A DNA stretch of 33,707 nt from Tannerella sp. (lineage in GTDB: Bacteria > Bacteroidota > Bacteroidia > Bacteroidales > Tannerellaceae): assembly GCA_031289275.1 (NCBI GenBank), contig JAITPV010000159.1, forward strand, positions 1 through 33,707, in the 5' to 3' direction. The position numbers were made by a program, and so were the translations under genes. The notes under the pieces are model-generated. The model saw only the letters and a list, made by a program, of their open reading frames with translations. It was not told where the DNA came from and searched no databases. This document shows positions 20,888 through 32,033 of this stretch, one piece after another (the stretch's first letter is position 1; every line of letters begins with the position of its first letter).

Positions 20888-22621
20888 TTATTTTTTCTGC
20901 CACCAAGTGGCTACGGTTGGATCATCTTCGCCTCTTGCAGCTTGCCAGTTGTCGAAATTATCGGAAATCTCGGTTGATTGCATGGGCAATCGTTTGAAAT
21001 TTCTGAAATAAGCGGGCAAGCCTTCGAAGGCTTCGGGTATCAGGTACGGAAGAGCGGCGTCTCCTTTCTCTAAACGCAGGAAGAAGGCATCGTGAGGACG
21101 GAGTACATATTCTATCCAGCGTTGCGTGTAAATCAGCCCCAATTTGTTGGGATTTTTGTCCCAGTCTACTTTGGGGTTACTCAAGAACCGTTCGATGTCT
21201 GCCGTATTCGGTTTCGTGGGCAAATCCACCCACGGGCTTTGATGACCGCTCGGCGCCTGCTGTGTATAAGCAAGGTCATACCAGAATTTTACGGAAGTGA
21301 TCAATCCTGTGACATAATGCTCTTTTGCCTTTGTCAAATCCTGGAAACCGAGGTCTTCCCTGGCGTATATTTCGGCCAGCATGAACTGTACTTCGGCTGC
21401 ACTGTACCATATTTGCGGATGAGAGGTCACATTGCCTTTTACGATATTATAATTCAAGGGTGAAGACGTAACACCGGGGTTCATCAACCCATAGTAACCG
21501 GCATCTCCGTTTTCTTCCCTGTTATTATGATAGGCTCTGACACCTCTGTCGCTCCAGTCGAGTTCAAAATTCTCCGTAGCGCTTCTTTGGCCGAATCCCT
21601 GGGTAAGGGGAATGTATCGTGTTCCCAGGTCGGCTTTGTCCATAAAGATTACGGCGCGGGGGTCAAAGAAATCGCTTCCGTCTACACTGGTGGGTGCATC
21701 CGACAACTGATTCCACAAGGCCGTACCGATACGAAGCGTGTTGTTGTAATAAACCATCAGCCCCGGCTCGCCATTTACGCCGTCCATTTCGCCGCGTCCG
21801 AAATTCACTCCGGCGGTAAACGCATCCAGGTCGAAATTCGCGAGGTCATAGCCTTTGGCCGGCGCCGGCAGGGTAGCCGAACTGTTGAGCACTTTTCCGA
21901 TAATGGTTTTCGCCGCCGCCGGATCGACATTCGACATCCTCAAAGCATGTTTCAGACGGATGGTGTTCGCAAAACTTTTCCACCTTTCGGTATTGCTCTT
22001 AAAGAGAATATCGTTGTTGCCATACGCGCCGTCATTGGGACTGAGATTGTCAATCGCCTCGTCCAAGTCTGCCAGCAGGCTTTTGTAGATAGATTCCTGC
22101 GTGTCGTATTTGGGACGATAGATGGGACTCGTACCGAAAGCCCTGCCGGCTTCCGAGTAGGGCATATCTCCAAAAAGATCCGTAATATCAAAGACCAACT
22201 TGGCTCTCAATATTCTGAGAATGGCCAACTGATTTTTTTTCTGCCCTTCGCTTGTGGCGGAAGAAAGAATCATGTTTTCCAGATAATTCGCATTCGCCAT
22301 GAAGTTTTTGAAACTGTCCCATGACGTATCGGTAGCGCGTGCAACCGACATTTGGGTAAAGCTACCCGTTGGCGCACCGTCGCTGGTAATCGTTCCTACC
22401 TGCGACAGATAATACAAGTACCCAAAACCGTAATCATAGGAAAAATTCCCATTAAACGGATTCATAAAATCCAATAATCCGGTAAACATATACGGTTCGT
22501 TGGTTTGCGTCGGATTCTTAGGGTCGGTATTCAATTCTTCAAACCCTTCGGTGCAGGCGGAAGAAAACATCAAACAAGTTGCTATTAAACAACTGGATAT
22601 ATTATATATTAACTTTTTCAT
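20888..22621 (-). CDS. SusD/RagB family nutrient-binding lipoprotein
   Basis: SusD-like proteins sit on the cell surface and form the lid of the SusC transporter, binding glycan or peptide ligands. The 577-aa product has a lipoprotein signal ending FSSAC (C23), then the family's TEGFEELNTDPKNPT. It has helical TPR-like segments (NQLAILRILRAKLVFDITDLFGDMPYSEA, RWKSFANTIRLKHALRMSNV) and a C-terminal RPHDAFFLRLEKG/FKRLP region. It belongs to the SusD-like subgroup often met without glycoside hydrolases, and none is present here, so the ligand could be a sugar, peptide or other nutrient. It lies 11 bases after susC in the same operon and ends in a strong terminator. Confidence 0.92.
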   Translation of the reverse strand: MKKLIYNISSCLIATCLMFSSACTEGFEELNTDPKNPTQTNEPYMFTGLLDFMNPFNGNFSYDYGFGYLYYLSQVGTITSDGAPTGSFTQMSVARATDTSWDSFKNFMANANYLENMILSSATSEGQKKNQLAILRILRAKLVFDITDLFGDMPYSEAGRAFGTSPIYRPKYDTQESIYKSLLADLDEAIDNLSPNDGAYGNNDILFKSNTERWKSFANTIRLKHALRMSNVDPAAAKTIIGKVLNSSATLPAPAKGYDLANFDLDAFTAGVNFGRGEMDGVNGEPGLMVYYNNTLRIGTALWNQLSDAPTSVDGSDFFDPRAVIFMDKADLGTRYIPLTQGFGQRSATENFELDWSDRGVRAYHNNREENGDAGYYGLMNPGVTSSPLNYNIVKGNVTSHPQIWYSAAEVQFMLAEIYAREDLGFQDLTKAKEHYVTGLITSVKFWYDLAYTQQAPSGHQSPWVDLPTKPNTADIERFLSNPKVDWDKNPNKLGLIYTQRWIEYVLRPHDAFFLRLEKGDAALPYLIPEAFEGLPAYFRNFKRLPMQSTEISDNFDNWQAARGEDDPTVATWWQKK

Positions 22622-22632
22622 ATGCCTTATTT

Positions 22633-25600
22633 TTAGAATGATAAATTAAGAGTAAAGCCATAACTTCTGGAGACGGGGTTAGCCCCAAATTCGATTCCCT
22701 GCGAGTTGCCCGCTCCGTTAGAACCTCCCGGATTCAAGCCCAGGGGCGCATTATCGTATATATAGAAAAGGTTTCGCCCTACCAATGACAGGGTGGCGCC
22801 TTGAATGAATTTCACTTTGCTGAGCAGTTTCGAATCCAGTTGATAACTCAATATCAACTCGCGAAAGTTCACCCACGTATTATCATATACACTTGGCGTG
22901 GCAGCCAGTCTTCCCCACGATCCGTAATGTTTATAAAAGTCGGTATAATGCGTTACAATATCATTTTTCACATACGCTCCATTCACTTCACGCACACCGT
23001 CGAGAATGACTCCGATATTGGCTGTATGGCCTACGCCATCCGGGTCTGTCCAGGAGTAAGGTAAACCGCCGCCGTTACGTTCTTTTACGGTGTTGGCGCC
23101 TCCTCCGAAACCGGTCATGGTAGCATACGAGCCGTACCACATATCACCGCCTATGCTCATGTCGATGAAAGCGCTTAACGAGATGTTTTTGTAACGGAAT
23201 GAATTCATAATACCTCCCGTCAGATCGGGAGTGGCATTGCCTATCGCCACTTTCGAGGCGGTTATTTGCCACGACTTTCCATCGGCGTTCACGATCCGGT
23301 TTCCGTTGTCATCGTAAAGGAAATCATAGCCGTAGATGACGCCGTAATTCTGTCCCGGTACTAATTCGATGGAAGGGCCATCGTTACCGAAGATACCGCC
23401 CAGGTTTACTTTTTCAGCCCCTTCGACCAAGCGAAGCAATTTATTCCTCGAACGGGTGCCCGTGAGCGTGAGGTCCCAACGGAAATCCTTCGTTCTGACG
23501 GGAATCAGGTTCACCATAAATTCAAATCCTTTCGTCTGCAACTGTCCTTCATTAATACGCATTCCGCTGGCTCCCGACGAGAGTGGAAGCGGAGAATCAA
23601 GTATCTGGTTGGTCGAATTGGTATCAAAATAGGTGAACTCAAGCGTAAGCCGGTCGTTGAAGAAGCCCAGATTACCACCAAACTCCCAGGTATTGGTCTT
23701 CTGCGGCTTCAAATTTGTTGAGGGCACCGCGCCCGGCAATTTGTTCCAGGTAGCCGTCCCTAACGTTCCGGATGCAAAAGTAGGATCCAACAGGAAGGGG
23801 GTTTCATCGGAGGCAGAATAGGCGTGTGCGATCCTGACTTTACCATAGCTGAAGGCATCCGATTTCCAATCGAAGGCATCGGTAAACACAAAACTGCCGT
23901 TTACCGACGGATAGAAATAGGAGTTGTTGCCCTGGGGCAAAGTAGATGACCAGTCGTTACGTCCGGTAACATCCAGGAAGGCATAATTCTTATAGGACAA
24001 GTTCAGGTATGCGTAAACAGACTGGACTTCCTTGCGGAAAAAGTCTTCTTCGGGAATATTATTTTTGAAATTGGTATTCGCCGGATCGTAGTTCCTTAAA
24101 AGATAGATGTAGGGTGAACTCATATTGGTATCCGTTCCACCCCTCATTAAATAGTAATCGCGCTTGTAATACACGCCGCCCAGTCCGCCGGTCACGTTGA
24201 TGTCGGGAAAGATGTTTTCCTTGGTCGCTATTAAAGAGGCTTCATGGTTGTATTCTATATTACGCCCCACCTGCCTTCCATAACGGCCGTCCAGCGTCCC
24301 CGTAACATCGCGGGGAGGTTGATACCTTATGTTATCAATGTTTTCGTTATCCATACCCAACTGCACTTTGGCTTTCAGCCAGGAAGCAATATCATAATTC
24401 ACGGCGATAGAGCCTAACAGTCTTTTTTTGTAATGGCTGTCGTCCAGGGTATTCAACCTCCAGTAGTAATATCTTTCCATGGATTTACCACCGGGGCCGC
24501 CGTTATCGTTACGGGTGCCGTCCGGATTTTTCCAGATGTCTTTTTCGAGATCCAGGTTATAGGAACGGGGCAAAAGATAGTTCCATATTTTCCCGCCACC
24601 GGTGTTATCGTGTCCAAACGGCACAAAATTTTTCTGGTGATTATCGAAGTATGATATATTCACATCGGCTGAAATCTTTTCGGAAACCATCAAATGACCT
24701 CCCAGGTTCAACGTTGTACGTTGCTGGCCGCTATTGATTCGGAACCCGCTGTTATCATAATGCGTGGCAGACAGGCGGATGGTTCCTTTTTCGCTCCCAC
24801 CCGAAAAAGCCACGTTATAGGTCTGGCTTAAGCCCGACTCCCAGATACTTTTTATGTTGTCCGGCAGAGGTGAATAAGGACGCAATTCGCCGTCCCACCA
24901 ACGCACCATCGTGCCGTCCATTCTCGGCCCCCAACTGTTGGCGCCGTTCCATTCGTCAAAAGGCGCCATGGTAAAATCTCCCGCCGCATTTTTCTGGAAA
25001 GGAGGTATTCCCCATTGAGACGCATATCCCAAAGAACCCTGACCGTATTCATTCTGATAATCGCCATAACGATAAAAATCGGTCGATATGATGCTGGCAT
25101 TAAAATCAATCCCGATTCCCGAATGTTTGGCTCCTTTTTTCGTCGTGATCAGGATCACTCCGTTCGCGCCGCGTGCGCCATACAAGGCTGCCGCCGCCGG
25201 GCCTTTGAGGATTGACATGTCTTCGATGTCAAACGCATTAAGGTCATTGGCGCTGCTTCCCCAGTCCGTACCGCTTTCATTGCTGGTTGTACCGGGGTCG
25301 TTCGTAATAGGCACACCGTCGACAATAAACAAAGGTTGGTTGTTCTTGTTTTTGTCGATACTGTTGTTACCACGGATAACGATTCTGGTGGAACCGCCTT
25401 CCAAAGTATTCGTCGCTGGAATGATTACTCCCGCAACCTTACCGCTTAACGCACTGATTACGTTAGGCGCTGCCGCCTTCACAAAGGCTTCTCCTTTTAC
25501 GGTTTCCTGGGCAAATCCGATGGATCGTTTTTCTCTTTTGATACCCAAGGCAGTAACTACCACTTCGGCCAAAGTCTGTGCATCTTCAACCAGTTTGACC

Positions 25601-25926
25601 TGAAGATTCGACTGTCCGGTGTAAGTAACTTCCTGTGTCACATATCCGATAAAGGATATCTGGATTACAGCGCCTCGGCTTACTTGCAGGGAAAAGTCTC
25701 CATTCACATCTGTAATGGTACCGTTTGTGGTTCCTTTCACAATAACGGATGCTCCTGCCACAGGGCCAAGGTCATCCTGCACATTTCCTCTCAACGTTGT
25801 ACTTTGTTGAGCAATTCCCGTATTTTCTGCTACCCTATTGTCTTCTGCCCGGACGTTTCCGCCGATACATAAACTCAGAGCTGACAGCAATACACTTAAA
25901 CACATCAACTTAATTCTCTTACGCAT
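22633..25926 (-). CDS. SusC/RagA family TonB-linked outer-membrane transporter
   Basis: Energy-dependent import of a nutrient across the outer membrane, driven by TonB. The 1097-aa product has a signal peptide ending near VRA (residue 27). A carboxypeptidase-like regulatory domain (about 45-125, LRGNVQDDLGPVAGASVIVKGTTNGTITD) follows, then a plug with LAEVVVTALGIKREKRSIGFA and QPLFIVDGVPITND, and a large beta-barrel ending in an aromatic residue (YGFTLNLSF). The order matches the family. The leader of the transcript is unusual: a 127-codon ORF ends 19 bases before this start. No sigma/anti-sigma pair or hybrid two-component regulator is adjacent. Confidence 0.94.
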   Translation of the reverse strand: MRKRIKLMCLSVLLSALSLCIGGNVRAEDNRVAENTGIAQQSTTLRGNVQDDLGPVAGASVIVKGTTNGTITDVNGDFSLQVSRGAVIQISFIGYVTQEVTYTGQSNLQVKLVEDAQTLAEVVVTALGIKREKRSIGFAQETVKGEAFVKAAAPNVISALSGKVAGVIIPATNTLEGGSTRIVIRGNNSIDKNKNNQPLFIVDGVPITNDPGTTSNESGTDWGSSANDLNAFDIEDMSILKGPAAAALYGARGANGVILITTKKGAKHSGIGIDFNASIISTDFYRYGDYQNEYGQGSLGYASQWGIPPFQKNAAGDFTMAPFDEWNGANSWGPRMDGTMVRWWDGELRPYSPLPDNIKSIWESGLSQTYNVAFSGGSEKGTIRLSATHYDNSGFRINSGQQRTTLNLGGHLMVSEKISADVNISYFDNHQKNFVPFGHDNTGGGKIWNYLLPRSYNLDLEKDIWKNPDGTRNDNGGPGGKSMERYYYWRLNTLDDSHYKKRLLGSIAVNYDIASWLKAKVQLGMDNENIDNIRYQPPRDVTGTLDGRYGRQVGRNIEYNHEASLIATKENIFPDINVTGGLGGVYYKRDYYLMRGGTDTNMSSPYIYLLRNYDPANTNFKNNIPEEDFFRKEVQSVYAYLNLSYKNYAFLDVTGRNDWSSTLPQGNNSYFYPSVNGSFVFTDAFDWKSDAFSYGKVRIAHAYSASDETPFLLDPTFASGTLGTATWNKLPGAVPSTNLKPQKTNTWEFGGNLGFFNDRLTLEFTYFDTNSTNQILDSPLPLSSGASGMRINEGQLQTKGFEFMVNLIPVRTKDFRWDLTLTGTRSRNKLLRLVEGAEKVNLGGIFGNDGPSIELVPGQNYGVIYGYDFLYDDNGNRIVNADGKSWQITASKVAIGNATPDLTGGIMNSFRYKNISLSAFIDMSIGGDMWYGSYATMTGFGGGANTVKERNGGGLPYSWTDPDGVGHTANIGVILDGVREVNGAYVKNDIVTHYTDFYKHYGSWGRLAATPSVYDNTWVNFRELILSYQLDSKLLSKVKFIQGATLSLVGRNLFYIYDNAPLGLNPGGSNGAGNSQGIEFGANPVSRSYGFTLNLSF

Positions 25927-25945
25927 AATAAATCATTTTTTTAAT

Positions 25946-26329
25946 TTAACAATAAACACTATTCTCAAGTCCATTCAATAATTCCAAAACTTTACAATTC
26001 AAAGATTTCATTTTCAATTTACAGAAAAGGCGGGTCAGGCCGGACGTAATTCTCCCGTAGCGATATAGCATAAGTCGATCGGCGACCGGAAAAATCCGTA
26101 TCACCCGGCTGTATCCGCAAATAATTGGTGAAATAAGAAAATCCTTTGCCATCGCTTTCTTGATAAAAAACGACGACAGGGGTATATGATTTAAATGAAT
26201 TATTTTTTGTATCTTTTGCGCGTGTATACCTCTCTCTCTCTCTCTCTCTAAAAAATAATCCGACCTAACCAACGCTAAGGCGTTAATTAAACCAAATGAG
26301 GAGAAAATATATCGGACAAGCGCTTTCAT
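25946..26329 (-). CDS. Leader ORF of the susC operon containing an (AG)10 tract
   Basis: A 127-codon ORF begins 35 bases after the susC-operon -7 box and ends 19 bases before the susC ATG. It starts MKALVRYIFSSFGL and passes through a RERERER stretch encoded by (AG)10 at 26230-26249 (plus strand reads CT). No known domain is seen. One repeat unit fewer would shift the ATG frame into another long open frame (containing NYLRIQPGDTDFSGRR), stopping at 26019-26021, a product of 102 aa. One unit more would stop about 43 codons from the start. The ORF may be a regulatory leader, translated mainly for its effect on susC. Whether a stable protein is made is unknown. Confidence 0.45.
   Translation of the reverse strand: MKALVRYIFSSFGLINALALVRSDYFLERERERGIHAQKIQKIIHLNHIPLSSFFIKKAMAKDFLISPIICGYSRVIRIFPVADRLMLYRYGRITSGLTRLFCKLKMKSLNCKVLELLNGLENSVYC
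26230..26249. repeat. (CT)10/(AG)10 microsatellite
   Basis: Ten uninterrupted dinucleotide units, reading (AG)10 in the direction of susC transcription. Such tracts change length by slippage during replication. It lies within the leader ORF. Confidence 0.97.
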
Positions 26330-26363
26330 TTACTTTTTTACTTTTCGTTGTATAATTAGATTG

Positions 26364-26397
26364 CAAAGATAATCTATTATTTCATCCACGATGCAAA
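26364..26397 (-). promoter_or_regulatory. Promoter of the leader ORF-susC-susD operon
   Basis: On the minus strand: TTTG (26394-26397), 22 nt, TATCTTTG (26364-26371). It predicts a leader of about 430 nt before susC. Confidence 0.65.
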
Positions 26398-29381: not shown

Positions 29382-32033
29382 TTAATTAGTATAGGAAATA
29401 TTTGTTTCGATAAATTCTCTTTCATCACTGTTCAGATCATACATTTCATATATATATTGATCGATTTTTTGATCTATCGGTGCGTTTTCATTGTTATGCG
29501 TATCCGAAGTCCGCTTATTCACCAACGAAATCAATTCCGATTCTATTTTAATGTTCGGCATCGGAATGTTCAACGTTTCCAATGCCTGGATGCTGATTTG
29601 ATCTTTATTAAACAGCTGTGGCGAGTCGCGCAACATGTAACGCCCCAGTTTGGAATTTAGCACGCCAAGCAGGTATTTTATATGTTGTCCGGTGATGAAA
29701 CACAGCGTGTCCAAAATGGCACACCCGCGGTAATCCATGCAAAAATCCGGCATGGCCGCTTCGCGCGTCCACACAATTTTCTGGCTCATAAAATCATCCC
29801 ATGCTTCATGCATGCCGTAATGTTGCAGAGCATACCATTCAAAAGTCACGCCTACTTCTTTTGTGTCCCGGCTAAACAGACATTCTTTGTATTTCGACAG
29901 ATGTTCATAGATCACCGGATATTGTTGCCGGAAGCGCAATTCAGCCCTTTCGGAAGCGGTCTTAATCGTGGTATCGTACAACAGGGGGAAATGCCAGGGG
30001 ATGCAAATCAGCCAGCGGTCCGATTCTTCCGGCATATAACGCCGGATATCTTCGGCCTGAAGCAGGGGGCGGATAATATCACTGTTTTTGTAATCGGCTA
30101 CGATAAATTCATCTTTGGTCTTCCCGTCAATAATGAAAGCCTCGTCATAGCCGGTGTTAATACCTGAATACATGCGGATATCCCATGTCTCAAGCGGCAT
30201 TCCGGTTTGTTCGATTTTGGCTCTGATATTTTTCTCCATGTCGGAAAGAATAGAGAAGGCGGTCGGAGCAACGGTCGCCAGGCCATTGAAATCTACTGAG
30301 AAAAGCGTTGCATAGTGCGACACGTAATTTTCCAGGGTCGTTTTTTGGGGATCAAAATCATCTTTAATCAGGCAATTCATCATTCGGTATTGGTTTCGCG
30401 CTTTTTGCAGGAGAATGATTCCCTGTTCCGAAAGCGAATTTTCCAACGTGTCCGCACCTTCAAATTCAATCATTAACAGCGGATTTGTGTTTTCCATCAA
30501 ATATTGACGCATCTTGCCGGCCGATGCGGATTTCATCCAGCCGTTGGATGTTATATACGATAAGAAACAATCCGGTTTCAACAATTTGTTTCCCAATTCA
30601 TAAAAGAGACTGAATACATCGCCGGTATGCTTGTAGGCTCTGTAATTCATTCGCTTGTACCGGTCGGCCGATTCGCCCGTCAGTTGACGTTGCATATAAG
30701 GTGGGTTCCCGATGATAACATCGAATCCGATATAATCGCCCGTCTCATTCCATAATTCCGGAAATTCATAACGCCATTCGATCGCCTCTTCAAAGACCGG
30801 ATTATTCTTTATTTCTTCGATTTTCTGTTTACATTTATCCACCATCGCCTGCACATCAAGAATCTTGATTCTTACGGCTTTCATCTCCTGTTCGTCCAAA
30901 GCGAAAAGACCGGGAGCTTTGAGCGTCTCCAATTCCCTTTGCCACTTTAACAGGTCTTCATTATTCCGGTCGTCCCGTACAATTTCCAACTGCATTTTCA
31001 CTTTGAGCATGGTAATCAGTTGGTGCAGGCTGCGTTTTTCTTCCTTTGTACGCGCCCGTTTATAGTCGTTCACGATCTTTTTATAATCGTCTATGCCGTA
31101 TCCGATGCGCTTGAATACCTTCCGCAGGTCTTCTTGCAGGGAAAACCTGCTGACGAGCGCGTCTCCACAACGGACATTACACGCTACTACCGACGAAACA
31201 AAGGAAGGTTTATCTTCCCAACCGGCATGTTTCAGCAGTTCCAGCCATAAACGCAACCGGCATATCGAGACCGCTGTGGGGTCTATATCGACACCGAACA
31301 GACAATGTTCGATGAGGGTTCGTTTTTCTTGCAGTAAAGCGATCTGAATCCGCCGGCTTTCGGGGTTTGACGCCATGAACGGGTAGGTATCGAAACGCTT
31401 TTTATCAAACACCGCCAAATCCTTTCCGTTCACTGCCACTTGATACTGAAACAACGGATTGCCCTCCTTATCGGCCAGGATGCCCAGTTGTGATTTGACG
31501 GCAATCATTTCATTCAGCAGGGTAATCAGGAAATAACCTGTGCGCATGGCCGGGTCACAAAAACGGAGCGTATTAAACGTCTCATTCGCCTCGGCAATAT
31601 TATCGCTGATTTTATACGATAATTCCATCAAGTTGGTACAATCACATCCAATGGCTTCGTTGAAACAGTGTAACACGGCTCGCATGACCGCATCCCCGCA
31701 CATATAGGAACCTGCGTAGGACGGAATGGTTTCGCTCCGGTCCAACTTTTCCGTCACAAAGGACAGGACAGAAACTATTTGCCTGAAATCCACCTCTTCC
31801 TCATACTGAATCTCCTGCATGGCCTCTGCCGCATCTTCCATTTGCAGCGCCCAGGAATTTCCGTCCGCAGGGATCAGGAAATAATTTCCGCTCTCTTTTA
31901 CTTCCATCAAACCTAACCGTTTGAGAAAAGCGGCATACCAAGGTTTTTCCAGAAAAGGAAATTCTTCGGACGGGCGCTCGGTAAATGGCTGAAATGATGG
32001 AATATCCGGTATTATATCGTCGTCTATAAACAT
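29382..32033 (-). CDS. Eco57I/type IIG-like adenine DNA methylase, motif I altered
   Basis: Relatives methylate adenine at a specific DNA site, many with a nuclease in the same chain. The 883-aa product keeps motif IV NPPY (443-446). It also has the insert typical of Bacteroidetes members (GVDIDPTAVSICRLRLWLELLKH) and a TaqI-like specificity region from about residue 615 (SGINTGYDEAFIIDGKT, IIRPLLQAEDIRRY). Motif I, usually DPACGSG, reads DPAMRTGYFL (D160), losing one glycine. The N-terminus is short, with only about 155 residues before motif I and no recognisable PD-(D/E)XK nuclease. It may be a reduced, solitary or inactive enzyme. ATG 32033 follows a TATTTTTG box. No second restriction gene is nearby. 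Confidence 0.82.
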   Translation of the reverse strand: MFIDDDIIPDIPSFQPFTERPSEEFPFLEKPWYAAFLKRLGLMEVKESGNYFLIPADGNSWALQMEDAAEAMQEIQYEEEVDFRQIVSVLSFVTEKLDRSETIPSYAGSYMCGDAVMRAVLHCFNEAIGCDCTNLMELSYKISDNIAEANETFNTLRFCDPAMRTGYFLITLLNEMIAVKSQLGILADKEGNPLFQYQVAVNGKDLAVFDKKRFDTYPFMASNPESRRIQIALLQEKRTLIEHCLFGVDIDPTAVSICRLRLWLELLKHAGWEDKPSFVSSVVACNVRCGDALVSRFSLQEDLRKVFKRIGYGIDDYKKIVNDYKRARTKEEKRSLHQLITMLKVKMQLEIVRDDRNNEDLLKWQRELETLKAPGLFALDEQEMKAVRIKILDVQAMVDKCKQKIEEIKNNPVFEEAIEWRYEFPELWNETGDYIGFDVIIGNPPYMQRQLTGESADRYKRMNYRAYKHTGDVFSLFYELGNKLLKPDCFLSYITSNGWMKSASAGKMRQYLMENTNPLLMIEFEGADTLENSLSEQGIILLQKARNQYRMMNCLIKDDFDPQKTTLENYVSHYATLFSVDFNGLATVAPTAFSILSDMEKNIRAKIEQTGMPLETWDIRMYSGINTGYDEAFIIDGKTKDEFIVADYKNSDIIRPLLQAEDIRRYMPEESDRWLICIPWHFPLLYDTTIKTASERAELRFRQQYPVIYEHLSKYKECLFSRDTKEVGVTFEWYALQHYGMHEAWDDFMSQKIVWTREAAMPDFCMDYRGCAILDTLCFITGQHIKYLLGVLNSKLGRYMLRDSPQLFNKDQISIQALETLNIPMPNIKIESELISLVNKRTSDTHNNENAPIDQKIDQYIYEMYDLNSDEREFIETNISYTN

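Follow-up and report, generated by a model that had tools for sequence, protein, structure and literature searches.

How might a dinucleotide repeat within a short leader open reading frame set the expression of the transporter genes that follow it? The question is raised by the leader of a susC-susD operon of Tannerella sp., which lies in a 33,707-nucleotide stretch of DNA that was analysed as a whole and is referred to here as the window. A preliminary description had proposed that the number of AG repeats in this leader determines whether ribosomes arrive near the susC start, and we have asked which parts of that proposal are borne out by the locus and by its relatives.

Organization of the leader and its operon

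All of the features of the locus are on the minus strand. The presumed regulated gene, susC (22633–25926, with its ATG at position 25926), encodes a SusC/RagA family TonB-dependent receptor with Pfam Plug and CarbopepD_reg_2 domains and a TIGR04056 match above cut-off. It shares an operon with a susD-like gene (20888–22621; Pfam PF12771 and PF12741), so that the locus has the arrangement typifying SusC/SusD operons, with the gene for a SusD-like lipoprotein after that for a SusC TonB-dependent receptor. Reading of the sequence places a Bacteroidetes-type promoter at 26397–26364, with the −33 TTTG at 26397–26394 and the −7 box TATCTTTG at 26371–26364, just as in the preliminary description. The leader ORF (26329–25946) has a start codon and frame common to the family described below, and encodes 127 amino acids with ten AG units. 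Within it are hairpin 1 (26297–26258), which may be a pause hairpin or sensitive to ribosomes and has a U-rich stretch after it, and then the candidate slippage tract, (AG)10 (26249–26230), which encodes Arg-Glu repeats whatever the frame. A tandem repeat whose unit is not a multiple of three is therefore located within a leader ORF between promoter and gene.

With ten units, as sequenced, translation ends at the stop codon at 25948–25946, leaving 19 nt before susC. The loss of one unit yields a 102-residue peptide ending at 26021–26019, the stop used whenever the unit number is 0 modulo 3, and the gain of one yields 43 residues, with a stop at 26202–26200 that serves all numbers that are 2 modulo 3; leaders with 8, 12, and 13 units would be 41, 104, and 129 residues long, respectively. 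The (AG)10 tract, the 127-codon ORF, and the 19-nt gap reported earlier were all confirmed on re-reading, and the arithmetic given for the gain or loss of a unit proved exact.

Between the tract and susC is a second hairpin (26182–26143) with a predicted energy of −18.0 kcal/mol and a z score of −5.3, reached by 0/200 shuffles. It is followed by the tail AUUUUCUUAUUU, which is U-rich with an interrupted U-tract, and we regard the whole (26182–26131) as a putative intrinsic terminator, or attenuator; it scores −15.4 kcal/mol in the T-run hairpin scan described below. Related hairpins are present in a sister leader in the source genome (L067) and in leaders of genome G008. Frames end on both sides of this terminator, with the 26202–26200 stop lying 17–21 nt before its stem and the other two beyond it. 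From these positions, unit numbers that are 0 or 1 modulo 3, including the ten sequenced, are predicted to be ON and the remaining phase OFF. The terminator-like hairpins and the multi-copy nature of the leader are two features that the preliminary description did not include.

A known riboswitch or other curated RNA family was considered and rejected, since no Rfam family matches the window at gathering threshold. Elsewhere in the window there is a tandem array (1–274) in which a 144-base unit containing heptamer sub-repeats occurs 1.9 times, and a gene (29382–32033, minus strand) whose 883-aa product has a methylase domain of the Eco57I restriction-modification type.

A family of AG-tract leaders

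The leader had been presented as a single case, but it is one of more than 100 AG-tract leaders in the genus that have the same order of parts, with tracts of 6 to 42 units. More than 100 loci around AG tracts were fetched for comparison; these are partly related, such that locus counts are not fully independent, and AG unit counts may be imperfect because the sequences are draft multi-contig assemblies. When the leader DNA was searched against the 41 genomes of the genus, 35 gave matches, many of them just before the tract (query positions 125–191) or just after it, and the idea of a single unique feature was rejected on this basis. The preliminary description had looked to conservation of the ORF and to AG counts in related genomes as checks on its proposal; leader start and frame are common to the family, and the counts vary among homologous leaders. 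A mobile repeat element is unsupported, in that an informal comparison indicates that copies differ in their promoter flanks but retain the −7 box, leader start, and hairpin.

Tracts, defined here as a non-G followed by at least seven AG units, number 226 in the 41 genomes of the genus; the other genera of the family have 10 in 84 genomes, which makes AG tracts approximately 45 times rarer per genome there. Individual genomes of the genus contain from 0 to 46 tracts, and because several near-complete genomes (G001–G003 and G005) have none, only part of the genus can be said to have the AG-leader system. The exact hairpin and tract pattern of the main leader type, type A, was found in none of 392 other genomes of the order, and in a collection of 85,462 species it is present in 24 contigs, 22 from Tannerella and one each from Prevotellaceae and Porphyromonadaceae. 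From their accession series we take the Tannerella sp. metagenome-assembled genomes carrying the pattern to be likely products of termite-gut metagenomes. Tannerellaceae genomes of this kind have been reported from termite guts in the literature. At several loci (L038, L046, L056, L087, L089, L110, and L154) the contig ends no more than about 40 nt past the AG tract; assemblies thus break at these tracts, and the copy number per genome is therefore probably underestimated.

The promoter assignment gains from the comparison, with a TAnnTTTG box positioned 27–80 nt before the leader ATG in 77 of 91 AG leaders, versus 5.8 expected from shuffling. The ATG is usually 74–86 nt 5' of the tract, and type A leader peptides conform to the pattern M-x-S-x-x-x-K-Y-...-LIN-xxx-LV-x-S-x-YLL-(ER)n; further types, B and D, are also recognizable. 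Hairpin 1 has 18 pairs in the window, with a 12-bp core at a z score of −2.9, and its type A form is a 14-bp stem, GNNTTAATTAACxx-N4-xxGTTGGTTAANNC, after which come a T-rich stretch and then the tract. Among 44 distinct copies, 92.4% of cells are paired and 54 cells have changed on both sides, compared to 17.3 in shuffled data, and sliding the partner strand lowers the pairing to 21–44%. A covariance model of hairpin 1 finds approximately 100 copies in 22 genomes of the genus. The hairpin is clear in type A only (mean z −3.6), with types B and D folding weakly at this position. Because translation crosses hairpin 1 at every tract length, it is probably a pause hairpin for RNA polymerase.

Locus L053 of one genome and L116 of another share 95% identity across 1.7 kb, yet have 28 and 21 units, and two paralogues in the source genome (L005 and L068) have 23 and 20 units in flanks that are 95–99% identical. 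As judged from these sequence pairs, AG tract length changes faster than its flanks. Such length differences between relatives are the pattern that slippage would leave, rather than proof of switching within a population. The phases of the sequenced tracts are spread over all three possibilities (39, 36, and 29). One type A leader of the source genome, L070 (G000:C203:6371-6430, minus strand), has a tract collapsed to AGAGAGAG, approximately four units, and encodes a fixed 28-aa peptide, possibly in a locked state.

The first gene downstream codes for a SusC-type receptor in 38 of the 59 loci in which it was classified, an HU-like/DUF4469 protein in 10, and a sigma factor in 2. AG-tract leaders are directly 5' of a sigma-70/ECF-like gene at L059, L162, and L183, where one switch could become regulon-wide. 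At L163, L177, L138, and L093 one leader phase is in frame with SusC and open throughout, and an N-terminally extended SusC is possible. At L094:1501 an (AG)12 tract lies within the ORF of a 512-aa secreted protein, eight codons from its start, which is the classical arrangement for phase variation inside a gene. There is also a second class of dinucleotide tract, resembling a (CT)n leader on the other strand, at L064–L066 (C152, C168, and C179 of the source genome) and in G014 (L106–L108, L113–L118, and L120); a hairpin of the form AAGGC..GCCTT-TTT is followed by ATGAATATATTCGCTA(CT)n, encoding LS repeats, and often a lipoprotein or MFYTRINKIKVFNNREGFLGLFN gene is next.

Predicted terminators and reading frames between tract and gene

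We scanned the tract-to-gene spacer of each of the 59 loci for hairpins followed by T-runs. At a cut-off of −10 kcal/mol an intrinsic terminator is predicted in 39 of these, compared to 15, 7, 10, 7, and 4 in five sets of shuffled spacers; at −14 kcal/mol there are 23, and 1, 0, 1, 1, and 0 in the shuffled sets. The remaining 20 of 59 loci have no terminator under these scan criteria. As a control we used 48 susC genes without an AG tract from the source genome and G014. Within the 300 nt 5' of the gene, hairpins at −10 kcal/mol were found in 32 of 59 AG loci versus 4 of 48 tract-less susC genes (Fisher p = 4e-7), and at −14 kcal/mol in 20 of 59 versus 0 of 48 (p = 1.5e-6).

The reading frames are arranged around these hairpins. 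In 36 of the 39 terminator-bearing loci one or more frames clear all of the terminators and one or more stop ahead of them, whereas shuffles that keep the hairpins have this geometry in a mean of 13.7 loci and a maximum of 20. Because chance alone supplies an early stop in one frame or another (38.96 of 39 shuffled loci), the statistical weight lies only in the frame that reads through. Two frames stop and one passes in 18 loci, one stops and two pass in 16, and five of the 39 depart from the simple pattern. At their sequenced tract lengths 24 loci are in a stopping phase and 15 in a passing one; the window is in a passing phase.

The conserved hairpins also bear on what the post-tract frames encode. 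A functional C-terminal domain (LREDYVRTDPPFL...) was rejected as the main reading because its motifs are translated conserved hairpins (GGGAGGAT...ATCCTCCC-TTTTT) and are present in some loci only; substitutions between the window and L067 have no clear third-position excess. The alternate frame NYLRIQPGDTDFSGRR, whose conservation the preliminary description had put forward as a check, is indeed conserved in L067 (64.7% identity), but as the stretch follows and partly overlaps conserved hairpins, we do not count it as a functional peptide.

Models for the proposed switch and known counterparts

Taken with the frame geometry and terminator enrichment, the architecture of these leaders makes it quite probable that they act as transcription attenuators that vary in phase and depend on translation. 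RNA polymerase would start at the promoter near 26371 and ribosomes would start the leader ORF at 26329, with hairpin 1 probably pausing the polymerase so that the ribosome can catch up, as in classical attenuators. Slippage at the AG tract would alter the reading frame past it in some members of a population. The ON configuration would comprise one phase or two out of three, with the ribosome crossing the terminator at 26182–26143 and blocking its folding so that susC-susD is transcribed; in the remaining phase the ribosome would stop just past the tract, the terminator would fold, and transcription would end. Translational coupling may contribute as well at loci such as this one, whose long frame runs up to the gene start.

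Coupling could instead be the entire switch, with the long frame bringing ribosomes to re-initiate at the susC start and the terminators playing no part. Of the 59 loci, 28 have a frame that remains open until no more than 35 nt separate it from the gene start, against 4.6 expected and a maximum of 9 in 200 shuffles, and the leader stop overlaps the gene start as ATGA at L141/L042, L054, and L167; the gap in the window is 19 nt. However, approximately half of the terminator-passing frames stop short of the gene by more than 45 nt or run well into it, too far from the start for coupling to be the shared function, and coupling leaves unexplained both the terminator enrichment and the lack of any −14 kcal/mol hairpin in the tract-less susC leaders. 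We therefore consider this alternative unlikely. The proposal that a slippery AG leader ORF switches a SusC/SusD pair is well supported by the genus-wide comparison, but its downstream step, the arrival of ribosomes at the susC start, is less well supported than terminator read-through.

Phase-dependent polarity, whereby translation that ends early leaves the rest of the leader RNA bare to Rho or RNases and the hairpins are incidental, would accommodate the loci for which the scan gave no terminator-like hairpin. Its genetics would be the same as those of attenuation, but the intrinsic-terminator hairpins with T-runs in most loci would have no explanation, and we regard it as improbable. It is highly improbable that transcription is tuned, without translation of the leader, by the length of a structural element that the tract and leader build in RNA or DNA (through purine-tract pairing, a triplex, or an R-loop). 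The predicted fold of the window does pair a CU-rich stretch 5' of hairpin 1 with the AG tract, but both the starts and the spacings of the leaders hold register with the open LIN frame and the post-tract frame geometry is non-random, for which translation is the sole explanation.

In the ribosome-mediated attenuation of biosynthetic operons such as E. coli trp and pyrBI, translation of a leader peptide decides whether a terminator forms, and there is an early pause hairpin. These respond to metabolites or charged tRNA, whereas the input to the AG leaders would be a heritable, random change in repeat number. The closest parallel in this respect is at the pil1 and pil3 loci of Streptococcus gallolyticus, where GCAGA repeats alter the length of a leader peptide and ribosomes open a premature terminator, with mutants made in the start codon, stop, and terminator (Danne et al. 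2014, PMC3894217). In both systems a simple repeat in a leader-peptide ORF sets the frame by its number, the short phase stopping before and the long phase reaching an intrinsic terminator ahead of surface-protein genes. They differ in that pil1/pil3 are two pilus loci of Firmicutes with pentamer repeats and a mechanism proven by mutants, whereas the AG leaders have dinucleotide repeats, are from Bacteroidota, and are predicted from sequence; they also number 0–46 tracts per genome, precede susC and other surface genes, and have an extra conserved hairpin before the tract. In S. gallolyticus, expression is low if translation stops 28 nt or more short of the terminator and high if it stops 4 nt short or within it (PMC3894217), and because the 17–21 nt in the window falls between these distances, its OFF phase is possibly leaky.

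Random on/off switching of the same class of surface transporters would also be shared with Bacteroides, in which SusC/SusD-type outer membrane proteins of B. fragilis vary in phase by DNA inversion (Nakayama-Imaohji et al. 2009, as cited in PMC11868660). There, however, an invertase acts in site-specific inversion, in contrast to strand slippage in a leader ORF. Slipped-strand mispairing that alters a reading frame is the principle of the simple-sequence contingency genes of Neisseria, Haemophilus, and Campylobacter, although those repeats are usually in the gene itself or its promoter rather than in a separate leader peptide. A literature search on Bacteroidota found no description of a slippage-controlled leader or SusC gene. 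By analogy with pil1/pil3, the AG leaders are most likely a multi-locus variant, in another phylum, of an attenuation mechanism proven once elsewhere.

We lean toward the broader view that a Tannerella-related, probably termite-gut, lineage of the Bacteroidales has a genome-wide random switchboard built from copies of one modular cassette, consisting of promoter, leader peptide, covarying pause hairpin, AG tract, and terminator, placed before a wide variety of surface and regulatory genes. If so, each cell would have a different on/off combination of transporters, with up to tens of loci per genome aimed chiefly at SusC nutrient importers. SusC importers can double as surface antigens and phage receptors. 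Slippage-driven attenuation would then be a second, independent surface-switching system in the Bacteroidales, beside the known DNA inversion, and the single published Streptococcus case would be no curiosity, the design having arisen again in another phylum. It would also mean that DNA reveals expression state, with the number of AG units modulo 3 in metagenomic reads giving the predicted state of each locus.
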